Shown here: piece by piece, positions 44,550-49,486 of the stretch
Numbering within the stretch: the first letter of the stretch is position 1
How the letters are laid out: each line of letters starts with the position of its first letter
Source: Pseudomonas guangdongensis
Lineage (GTDB): Bacteria > Pseudomonadota > Gammaproteobacteria > Pseudomonadales > Pseudomonadaceae
Direction of reading: 5' to 3'
NCBI RefSeq assembly: GCF_900105885.1
Contig: NZ_LT629780.1
Span: 1,736,001 to 1,800,000, forward strand
Length of the DNA: 64,000 nucleotides
The notes under the pieces: model-generated
Seen by the model: only the letters and a program-made list of their open reading frames with translations
What the model was told of the DNA's origin: nothing
Databases searched by the model: none
Made by a program: the position numbers and the translations under genes

Positions 44550-44585
44550 CCCGACCTTGCGGGTCGGGCTTGTTCACTTTTTGTG
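44550..44585 (+). terminator. Probable terminator of parC
   Basis: CCCGACC and GGTCGGG form a 7-bp stem with a five-base loop, followed by the T-rich CTTGTTCACTTTTTG. It lies 60 bases after parC and about 50 before the YgiQ start; a TATCCT hexamer at 44587 may be part of the next promoter. Confidence 0.55.
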
Positions 44586-44634
44586 CTATCCTCCGCGCCC
44601 GCGTAAATCCCTCCGAGAGTTCCTGGTCATCGCC

Positions 44635-46887
<2,253 letters not shown>

Positions 46888-47019
46888 GCGGCGGCTCGCG
46901 CAGGCGACGGGCGTGGAGCGTGCGGGGACGTTACGGTGCGCTGCCCGGTTCGCCGGCGGGGCGCCATGCCGTGTGCTGCGACTGCCTGGGAGCCTGTCTT
47001 CTGCGGGAAGTGTGCGATG

Positions 47020-47052
47020 AAAAACGCCGTTGCCCTGTCGGGACAACGGCGT
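47020..47052 (-). terminator. Intrinsic terminator of the hemerythrin-like gene (minus strand)
   Basis: ACGCCGTTG (47024-47032) pairs with CAACGGCGT (47044-47052), with an inner CCC/GGG pair and a one-base bulge; on the minus strand it is followed by TTTTT. It lies 40 bases beyond the stop at 47093. Confidence 0.8.
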
Positions 47053-47092
47053 GGCAATGATGACGGGCGGCATGGCGCCCGGCGAACCCGGC

Positions 47093-47473
47093 TCAGTGCA
47101 GCAGGCGATCCTCGGCCCGGCAGTGCTCGTTCTGCCAGGCCTGCAGGCAGTGCAGCAGCTGCACGCCCACCGGCTCGCCCAGCTCGTGGCGGCGCAGCAG
47201 GTTGAGGATTTCCAGGCACAGCCCGTTGTGGGCGTCGATGTGGGCGGCGTCCAGCGCCAGGCCCAGTTCGCGGAAGGCTTCCTCCTCGCTGACCAGCGAC
47301 TGCAGCAGGCCGCTGAGCAGGCGCTCTAGGCACAGCCCCACGGCGCTGCGTGCGTCGCGGCGGTGCAGGCTGCCGCTGAGGTGTTCGGTCAGGGTGCCGA
47401 GCCAGCGGCGTTGCGCTTCGATCACGGCGATGCCGTGCAGGTCTTGGGCGTTCCAGGGGGTGAAGTGGGTCAT
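47093..47473 (-). CDS. Divergent bacteriohemerythrin-like protein lacking two iron-ligand histidines
   Basis: A 126-residue all-helical protein. WNAQDLHGIAVIEAQRRWL, SEEEAFRELG, AAHIDAHNGL and WQNEHCRAED align with the four hemerythrin helices at matching spacings. Of the seven ligands known for diiron hemerythrins, Glu63, His78, His82, His117 and Asp122 are retained. The histidines expected after Gln21 and four residues before Glu63 are Arg22 and Ser59, which removes both histidines of one iron. It may bind a single iron, another metal, or none. AAGGAG lies seven bases before the ATG at 47473, and an intrinsic terminator follows, so it is an expressed single gene. Oxygen binding is doubtful. 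Confidence 0.75.
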   Translation of the reverse strand: MTHFTPWNAQDLHGIAVIEAQRRWLGTLTEHLSGSLHRRDARSAVGLCLERLLSGLLQSLVSEEEAFRELGLALDAAHIDAHNGLCLEILNLLRRHELGEPVGVQLLHCLQAWQNEHCRAEDRLLH

Positions 47474-47615
47474 TTCGTGCTCCTTGCCGGGCATCCATCG
47501 GGCGAGCCCTGAGTCGCTCACCCTCCATGCGCCATGCAGCGTAACCTGCTGGTGTGACAGGACGGCGATCCGTGCTGTCGATGCGTTACCTTTCCACTCG
47601 CCGCGGGGGGCGGCG

Positions 47616-48260
47616 TCAGCGACCGAGGCGGCGCAGCTCGTCGGACTCGACGATGCGGATGCCGCGGCGCTCCTCCAGCGCCAGGCGCCAGAGCGCGCGG
47701 GCCAGGGTGCAGACGGAAATGGCGCGCCATTTTCCAAGCAACAGGCGTGCCAGCGGTGCGGCCAGCTGTTCGATCAGGCGCTGCTCGCGGCGCGGGCCGA
47801 GCAGCAGGGAGGGGCGGGCGATGGTCAGTTGCGGCCAGTCCTGGGCCTTGAGGGCTTCCTCCATCTCGCCCTTGATGCGGCTGTAGAGCACCCGCGAGCG
47901 CGGGTCGGCGCCGAGCGCGCTGACCACGATGAAATGCCGGGCGCCCAGCTCGCGGGCGCGCTGGGCGCAGGCGATCACCAGGTCGCGGTCGATGGCGCGG
48001 AAGGCGCCTTCCGAGCCGGCCTGGCGCAGGGTGGTGCCCAGGCAGCAGAACGCGATGTCGATCGGCCCCTGCAGTTGGGCGAGCACCTCCTGCAGGTTGC
48101 CTCGCGGATTGTCCAGATGGGGGTGCTCGGCCAGCGGGCGCCGGCTGGGGGCGAGCACGCGCTGCACGGTGGGCTCGTTGAGCACGCGGTCGAGCAAGTG
48201 CTCGCCGCTCAGGCCGCTGGCGCCGATGATGAGGATGTTGTGGGGATTGTGATGAGGCAT
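47616..48260 (-). CDS. NAD(P)-binding Rossmann-fold protein (atypical SDR)
   Basis: A 214-residue atypical short-chain dehydrogenase-like protein. The dinucleotide-binding motif is at the N-terminus, [16 protein letters not shown] (G-x-x-G-x-x-G type), followed by [21 protein letters not shown] and [31 protein letters not shown], typical of the HTATIP2/YwnB-like group. The Tyr-x-x-x-Lys of classical SDRs may be represented by YSRIK. It may be an oxidoreductase or a redox sensor; substrate unknown. It lies 142 bases upstream of the hemerythrin-like gene on the same strand and is divergent from lrgA. Confidence 0.85.
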
Positions 48261-48410
48261 GGCCGCTCGATTCTTTGTTATTTTCGCCAGCCCTGAGGCC
48301 GTTGCTGCAACGGCTCTAGATCAACATGTGCAGGATGGCCGGGTCAAGCCTGCCAAGGTGCAATCGAGGCGCCCCGCCGGTGGGGTGGCCGCTGCTGCGG
48401 AGAACGCGTG

Positions 48411-48773
48411 ATGTTGTTGCGAGGAATTACCTGGCTGGTGCTGTTCCAGCTGCTGGGCACCGGGTTGAACGTGCTGCTGTTGCCGATGCTGCCGGGGCCG
48501 ATCATCGGCCTGGTGCTGCTGTTCGCCTTCCTGGTGTGGAACGGCGAGGTGCCGGCGCCGGTCAGCGAGGCGGGCGGCGCGCTGCTGCGCTACCTGCCGC
48601 TGCTGCTGGTGCCGCCGGCGGTGGGGGTGATGGCCTATGCCGAGGCGATCGCCGCCGACTTCTGGGCGCTGAGCGCCACCCTGGTGCTGTCGCTGCTGCT
48701 GTCGCTGGCCTTCGCCGGCTGGCTGATGCAGAAACTGATCGATCGCCAGCAGCGCAAGGAGCCCAAGCCATGA
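48411..48773 (+). CDS. LrgA/CidA family holin-like membrane protein
   Basis: A 120-residue protein with four hydrophobic helices (LLRGITWLVLFQLLGTGLNVLLL, PGPIIGLVLLFAFLVW, YLPLLLVPPAVGVMAY and WALSATLVLSLLLSLAFAGWLM). LPGPIIGLVLLF is the CidA/LrgA signature. Partner proteins LrgA and LrgB modulate autolysis or transport of small metabolites such as pyruvate in other bacteria. ATG at 48411 has GGAGA seven bases upstream; GTG at 48408 is possible. The stop overlaps the lrgB-like start by four bases. Confidence 0.9.
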   Translation: MLLRGITWLVLFQLLGTGLNVLLLPMLPGPIIGLVLLFAFLVWNGEVPAPVSEAGGALLRYLPLLLVPPAVGVMAYAEAIAADFWALSATLVLSLLLSLAFAGWLMQKLIDRQQRKEPKP

Positions 48774-49486
48774 GCACGCAACTGGCCGTCGCCGCCCAGG
48801 CGATCCTCGACCATCCGCTGTTCGGCTTCGGCATCACCCTGGGCGCCTACCAGCTGGCCCTGGCGTTGTTCGAGCGCACCCGCTGGGTCTTCCTGCAGCC
48901 GGTGCTGCTGTCGATGACCCTGGTGGTCGGCGTGCTGCTGCTGTGCGGCATCGACTACGCCGAGTACCGGCAGAGCGTGAGCATGCTCAGCGTGTTCCTC
49001 GGCCCGGCCACCGTGGCCCTGGCGGTGCCCTTGTTCCTCAACCTCAAGCGCATCCGCCAGCTGCTCTGGCCGATCCTGATCACCCTCGGCGTGGCCGGCA
49101 GCCTGGCCACCGCGCTGGGTATTGGCCTGGGCTGGCTGCTGGGCGCCGACCATGTGATGCAGATGACCCTGTTGCCCAAGTCGGTGACCTCGCCGATCGC
49201 CATGCTGGTGGCCGAGCAGCTCGGCGGCATCGCCGCGCTGGCCGCGGTGTTCGTGCTGATCACCGGGGTGATCGGGGCGATCTGCGGGCCGGCGCTGCTC
49301 GGCCTGATCGGCGTGCGCAGCCCGGCGGCGCGCGGCCTGGCGCTGGGTCTGACTGCCCATGCGGTGGGCACCGCCCAGGCGCTGCAGGAGAGCGAGGAAA
49401 CCGGCGCCTTCGCGGCGCTGGCGATGAGCCTGATGGGTGTGGCCTCGGCCATTGGCGTGCCGCTGGTGATGCTGCTGGTGTTGTAG
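48770..49486 (+). CDS. LrgB/CidB family membrane protein
   Basis: A 238-residue LrgB-type protein with several hydrophobic helices. Conserved segments include FLGPATVALAVPLFLNLKRI, LPKSVTSPIAMLVAEQLGG and ARGLALGLTAHAVGTAQALQE. It is the usual partner of LrgA and is coupled to it by a four-base ATGA overlap. The pair has been linked to export of murein hydrolases and to overflow-metabolite transport; which applies here cannot be told. Its 3' end is 17 bases from the convergent DedA-PAP2 gene. Confidence 0.93.
   Translation: MSTQLAVAAQAILDHPLFGFGITLGAYQLALALFERTRWVFLQPVLLSMTLVVGVLLLCGIDYAEYRQSVSMLSVFLGPATVALAVPLFLNLKRIRQLLWPILITLGVAGSLATALGIGLGWLLGADHVMQMTLLPKSVTSPIAMLVAEQLGGIAALAAVFVLITGVIGAICGPALLGLIGVRSPAARGLALGLTAHAVGTAQALQESEETGAFAALAMSLMGVASAIGVPLVMLLVL

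Follow-up and report, generated by a model that had tools for sequence, protein, structure and literature searches.

Hemerythrins hold two irons in a four-helix protein: three histidines bind Fe1, two bind Fe2, carboxylates bridge the pair and O2 binds at Fe2, as set out in PMC9388753. The same source describes hemerythrin-like domains of P1B-5-ATPases with the motif H-HxxxE-HxE-HxxxxD, in which HxxxH has become HxE and which are nevertheless credited with a diiron centre that has met and oxy forms. Ligand variation has also been reported in 106 single-domain hemerythrins in PMC4919030, where it is left open whether function was lost, a new one gained or iron bound in some other manner.

Here we describe hemX (a name coined here), a bacteriohemerythrin-like gene in the window, by which we mean the whole stretch of 64,000 nucleotides analysed. 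Both Fe2 histidines are present in bacteriohemerythrins (the NF033749 family; the solved structures 4xpw, 4xpx and 4xpy, and DcrH-Hr, 2avk and 2awc), whereas hemX lacks both. With a probability of roughly 0.5, we propose that hemX is a pseudo-hemerythrin, in which the O2 site was removed early, the fold was kept and the remaining metal ligands are no longer required.

hemX is a divergent relative of the bacteriohemerythrins

The coordinates of hemX, of its ligand codons and of its neighbours are collected in Table 1. The reading frame has a strong coding signature (GC1/GC2/GC3 = 0.78/0.40/0.92). A ribosome-binding site and a terminator of its own, both claimed in the original prediction, were found as AAGGAG 6 nt before the ATG and as a terminator-like 12-pair stem with a T-run after the stop, the scan of positions 46500-48000 giving two terminator-like sites against 0.9 expected from shuffled sequences.

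Residues 6-123 of hemX align with positions 3-122 of 129 in the NCBIfam bacteriohemerythrin profile NF033749 (E = 2e-10), but the score of 40.9 bits is below the curated cut-off of 84 bits. hemX is therefore a divergent relative of bacteriohemerythrin, and not a member by the rule of the NF033749 curators. A Pfam scan of hemX returned no family at E ≤ 1, and phmmer gave a weak match to solved bacteriohemerythrins over residues 39-124 (E = 0.21-0.36). An hhalign comparison of a profile of the eight hemX orthologues with five canonical hemerythrin sequences gave a probability of 99 (E = 3e-19), and a profile search of the PDB, with a query profile that included six canonical relatives, recovered 4xpx at E = 5.1e-21. 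The NF033749, hhalign and PDB comparisons show common ancestry of hemX and the hemerythrins.

The AF2 model of the window protein has the four-helix bundle with an N-terminal loop that was looked for (pLDDT 90.5), and four helices are still predicted for the most ligand-depleted copy that we folded, from the congener G002 (pLDDT 83.2). hemX differs from the bacteriohemerythrins in its shorter C-terminus, and a pocket segment that reads YTMNHF in close canonical relatives is GLLQSL in hemX.

In both the MAFFT and the hhalign alignments, Arg22 and Ser59 stand in for the Fe2 histidines, as originally predicted, and the phmmer match agrees for Ser59. Glu63, His78, His82 and His117 are in register with canonical ligands by MAFFT, by phmmer over residues 39-124 and by hhalign; Asp122, which lies beyond the end of the hhalign alignment, is in register by the other two methods. 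The prediction that hemX aligns with bacteriohemerythrins at matching spacing is thus borne out by all three methods (weakly by phmmer), as is the claim that the window protein keeps every Fe1 histidine and the two carboxylates that bridge the irons. The resulting pattern is R-SxxxE-HxxxH-HxxxxD in the window, with fewer ligands in five of the eight orthologues. Arg and Ser do not normally bind iron. We looked for substitutes among the other histidines, of which His13, His31 and His37 had been named beforehand as examples, and none of H3, H13, H31, H37, H96, H108 and H126 aligns with the missing Fe2 positions; five of them (H3, H13, H31, H37 and H108) are variable even within the six species whose site is fuller.

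Table 1. Features of the hemX locus, with positions in the window
Feature	Position	Strand	Basis
hemX, bacteriohemerythrin-like, 126 aa	47093..47473	-	translation
Shine-Dalgarno AAGGAG, 6 nt 5' of the hemX ATG	47480..47485	-	read from sequence
Intrinsic-terminator-like hairpin, 12 pairs then TTTTT, 3' of the hemX stop	47024..47052	-	terminator scan
Arg22 codon CGC, canonical Fe2 His	47408..47410	-	MAFFT and hhalign; Arg in 7/8, His (CAC) in 1/8
Ser59 codon TCG, canonical Fe2 His, in invariant SGLLQSLVS	47297..47299	-	Ser in 8/8 orthologues
Glu63 codon, bridging carboxylate	47285..47287	-	kept in window; Ala in 2/8 orthologues
His78 codon, Fe1 ligand	47240..47242	-	kept in window; gap or Leu by alignment in 2/8
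His82 codon, Fe1 ligand	47228..47230	-	kept in 8/8 orthologues
His117 codon, Fe1 ligand	47123..47125	-	kept in window; Arg/Tyr in 2/8 orthologues
Asp122 codon, bridging carboxylate	47108..47110	-	kept in only 3/8 orthologues
NADox, NAD(P)-binding oxidoreductase/epimerase-like gene	47616..48260	-	PF13460, E = 1.3e-7; synteny
lrgA, presumed CidA/LrgA-like gene	48408..48773	+	conserved hemX neighbour by synteny
lrgB, presumed LrgB-like gene	48770..49486	+	conserved hemX neighbour by synteny
ygiQ, presumed YgiQ-like radical SAM gene	44557..46887	+	convergent neighbour of hemX; synteny comparison

hemX and its neighbourhood within the genus

Orthologues of hemX were found in all eight genomes of the genus, scoring 101.5-272.6 bits. 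The seven congeners (G001 to G007) include Pseudomonas linyingensis, P. sagittaria (Geopseudomonas sagittaria in the NCBI taxonomy), P. oryzagri, P. sp. A-1 and a strain labelled Stutzerimonas stutzeri K1. Among 390 genomes sampled from other genera of the family, 28 had a match at E ≤ 1e-10, none above 75.1 bits. We read 22 of these 28 as loci (the remaining six are outside this count): canonical ligands were present in all 22. At the place equivalent to that of hemX, no hemerythrin is present in any of 22 loci read from other genera. A search of the order with the orthologue profile (390 genomes) gave 86.0 bits as the best match besides the window gene, and the rows extracted from it carry canonical ligands.

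NADox is the upstream same-strand neighbour of hemX in all eight genomes and the sole constant one, its stop lying about 100-145 nt upstream. Both genes are accompanied in every genome by lrgA, lrgB and pap2, the last of which we take to be of PAP2/DedA type. A presumed alkyl-purine-glycosylase-type gene, mpg, is also nearby except in G005, where the contig ends. ygiQ has a long match in three of the seven congeners and a 59-aa piece in a fourth (G001), and no match within the stretch compared in the other three. Relative to the window copy, hemX orthologues are 50-63% identical. The range is 76-94% for NADox, lrgA, lrgB, mpg and those three long matches to ygiQ; the figure is 65-82% for pap2, from partial alignments, and 58% for the G001 ygiQ piece. 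Each of the eight genomes also carries one or more hemerythrins with the complete set of seven ligands, which makes hemX an extra copy.

Loss of both Fe2 histidines is unusual

All seven ligands (HHEHHHD) are kept in 40 of 40 canonical rows drawn from the searches of the window's own genome, the genus, the family and the order; identical copies count as a single row, one protein (L065) supplies three rows through its separate domains, and a weak match below the profile threshold (L004) was left out. We then consider a class-wide survey of 229 genomes, 85 of which had a match. Sixty proteins among the matches listed were fetched: 30 from above the cut-off and, of the 32 listed below it, the 30 that have no internal stop. 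All seven ligands are kept in 52 of the 60 and seven carry one or two substitutions, while one (L126) was merely split in two by the search; loss of both Fe2 histidines was seen in none of these 60. On these alignments, a loss like that in hemX is unusual. By simple arithmetic, a random loss of two of seven ligands hits exactly the two Fe2 histidines once in 21 times, so the ligand pattern alone is modest evidence against random loss.

The survey also contained ligand variants of other kinds. Three hemerythrin-like proteins from other genomes of the class (L109, L111 and L123; G869:C25, G834:C29 and G859:C51) have His at the Asp122 position and have also lost one His of the HxxxH pair, to Tyr or Ser; the two changes coincide in 3/3 such cases among the 60, as if the ligand had moved. 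Two others (L106 and L112; G905:C13 and G802:C1) share a LIDD(I/V)L.GD motif in which the helix-D histidine ligand is Asp, and in one (L100; G782:C10) the Fe2 histidine of HxxxE is Asp with all other ligands kept.

Ligands were probably lost in steps along the orthologue tree

Position 59 is Ser in all eight orthologues and position 22 is Arg (CGC or CGT) in seven, the exception being His in G002. This sharing, which the original prediction had proposed to check, indicates that the Fe2 loss is old; with frame and position also kept, it is not a private accident of one genome. The other ligands have fared differently. Glu63, His78 and His117 are each kept in six orthologues, and in G002 and G003 they give way to Ala in both, to a gap or Leu depending on the alignment (with an adjacent codon deleted), and to Arg in G002 and Tyr in G003, respectively. 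Asp122 is kept only in the window, G005 and G006, and His82 is kept in all eight, even where the rest of the site is gone. The claim that only one iron's site had been lost therefore does not extend to the family, and loss of the remaining ligands among orthologues, which had been named in advance as evidence against it, has occurred in part: Asp122 is gone in five of the eight and Glu63, His78 and His117 in two.

A tree of three neighbour proteins, rooted on other genera, has the form (window,((G007,(G005,G006)),((G001,G004),(G002,G003)))), with support of 88/87 at the fork joining (G001,G004) and (G002,G003) and an outgroup that has one of the three proteins. The hemX tree has the same internal branching, with supports of 89/26 and 89/72 at two weak forks, and unites the orthologues in a single clade (100/100), whose stem is very long at 3.98 changes per column. 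Absence of the Fe2 histidines with all else kept is seen in the deepest branch, the window, and in G005 and G006, and is the simplest ancestral state for that reason. On the simplest history, both Fe2 histidines would have been lost before the genus radiated, Asp122 twice (in G007, and in the ancestor of G001, G004, G002 and G003), and the rest of the iron site except His82 in G002/G003. The His22 codon (CAC) of G002 (L011 1501-1866) occurs in a copy whose site has mostly vanished, and is most simply explained as a chance reversal of Arg.

These patterns bear on the best rival to the pseudo-hemerythrin reading, a mononuclear Fe1-type site in six species. Here His78, His82, His117 and Glu63, with Asp122 optional, would bind a single Fe, Mn or Zn, Arg22 and Ser59 would replace the second metal, and the G002/G003 lineage would have lost the site later. 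Outside G002/G003, in six species that include the deepest branch, four of the five retained ligands are invariant (chance P = 0.19), and the three ligand histidines are all invariant there, compared with two of seven other histidines (P = 0.083, arithmetic), which hints at residual metal binding; Arg22 and Ser59, moreover, are near-fixed replacements and not noise. However, that P of 0.19 does not clearly set the retained ligands above other residues in conservation, and across all eight orthologues one of the five is invariant, compared with 47 of 126 positions overall. Because His82 persists even in copies that have lost the site, its conservation is not necessarily a sign of metal, and the losses of Asp122, Glu63, His78 and His117 count against this reading too. 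We regard the mononuclear site as possible, if tentatively so. Put as a natural one-metal hemerythrin, whose ancestor would have given up the O2-binding iron but retained the Fe1 half-site (three His and Glu, with Asp in some) with Arg22 replacing the second metal, and which would be used in six of the eight species and dispensed with in two, the proposal seems to us doubtful. The mononuclear metal protein of the original prediction is thus possible for six species, but it is not the reading we prefer across the whole family.

hemX evolves fast under weak constraint

None of the eight hemX copies contains an in-frame stop, and their lengths differ only by whole codons. At least 154 amino-acid changes have occurred among them in 121 gap-free columns, a number that should have brought some 7-9 stops if there were no selection (arithmetic, taking 4.3-5.4% of replacement-type changes as nonsense). 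The 47 invariant positions include the whole SGLLQSLVS segment that carries Ser59, and, of the 33 such positions as far as residue 71, 19 are encoded by two or more codons.

By a counting method, omega for hemX is below 1 in all 28 pairs: 0.10 in a near-identical pair with four changes, then 0.26 and 0.47, and 0.55-0.94 in the remaining 25, absolute values that are inflated because the method probably underestimates dS in GC-rich genes. The neighbours give 0-0.31 (NADox) and 0-0.42 (lrgB) over 28 pairs each, and the canonical hemerythrin paralogue 0.05-0.37 over 21 pairs from seven genomes; with omega probably overestimated in GC3-rich genes, the contrast between hemX and its neighbours is the result. 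hemX is under protein-level selection, with weaker constraint than on its neighbours, and is fast-evolving.

The higher omega values in 25 of 28 pairs, the stepwise ligand loss and the low identity of hemX relative to NADox, lrgA, lrgB, mpg and the long ygiQ matches are also what a gene being lost would show, that is, a duplicate under nearly relaxed selection with little function left in any species. Against this, hemX is in frame and of similar length in all eight species despite the many amino-acid changes, SGLLQSLVS and the other invariant positions have been held, and the omega values are themselves probably overestimates. We consider gene loss unlikely.

Discussion

The pseudo-hemerythrin reading would make hemX a genus-specific, fast-evolving bacteriohemerythrin paralogue. 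Arg22 and Ser59 would have taken the place of the Fe2 histidines in the genus ancestor, and the pocket would have been rebuilt there as the invariant SGLLQSLVS. By hemerythrin chemistry, removal of the O2-binding iron would abolish reversible O2 binding, and O2 handling would be left to the intact bacteriohemerythrins elsewhere in the same genomes. Arg22 may partly offset the charge of the missing iron by pairing with Glu63/Asp122. The four-helix bundle would be retained as a small scaffold that most likely acts through binding to itself or to a partner protein, with no diiron centre, and the leftover Fe1 ligands would be relics, or weakly useful, disappearing lineage by lineage.

Some observations weigh against the pseudo-hemerythrin reading. 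Glu63, His78, His82 and His117 are all kept in six of the eight species, the gap between NADox and hemX means that a joint function is not established, and a scan of positions 46500-48000 returned no sigma-70-type promoter-like site. The full-ligand hemerythrins of all eight genomes would also suit a regulatory or mixed-oligomer subunit, with hemX pairing with and tuning the canonical bacteriohemerythrin of the same cell, but hemX is not co-localised with canonical hemerythrin genes and the single-domain hemerythrins of bacteria are usually regarded as monomeric, which makes this very improbable. Nothing points to the sensor that had been suggested: 126 residues leave no room for an extra domain, and none of the compared neighbours, most of which carry presumed labels, resembles a signalling gene.

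As a kind of protein, ligand-variant hemerythrins are already in print (PMC4919030). The clades that this work names as showing variation most evidently do not include the Gammaproteobacteria, to which the host of hemX belongs. In the literature searched, we found no report of this graded, syntenic series of ligand loss. The P1B-5-ATPase domains described in PMC9388753 resemble hemX in having a hemerythrin-like fold with an altered ligand set; unlike them, hemX replaces both histidines of one iron by Arg and Ser. hemX is a compact case of a diiron protein dismantled stepwise while its gene is kept, the histidines of the O2-binding iron going first, then a bridging carboxylate, then most ligands of the other iron. 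Across the syntenic copies of the eight genomes, the site runs from a complete half-site down to hardly any ligand. Such a natural series would allow the question raised in PMC4919030, whether function is lost, new or served by a different mode of iron binding, to be tested on a few purified proteins.
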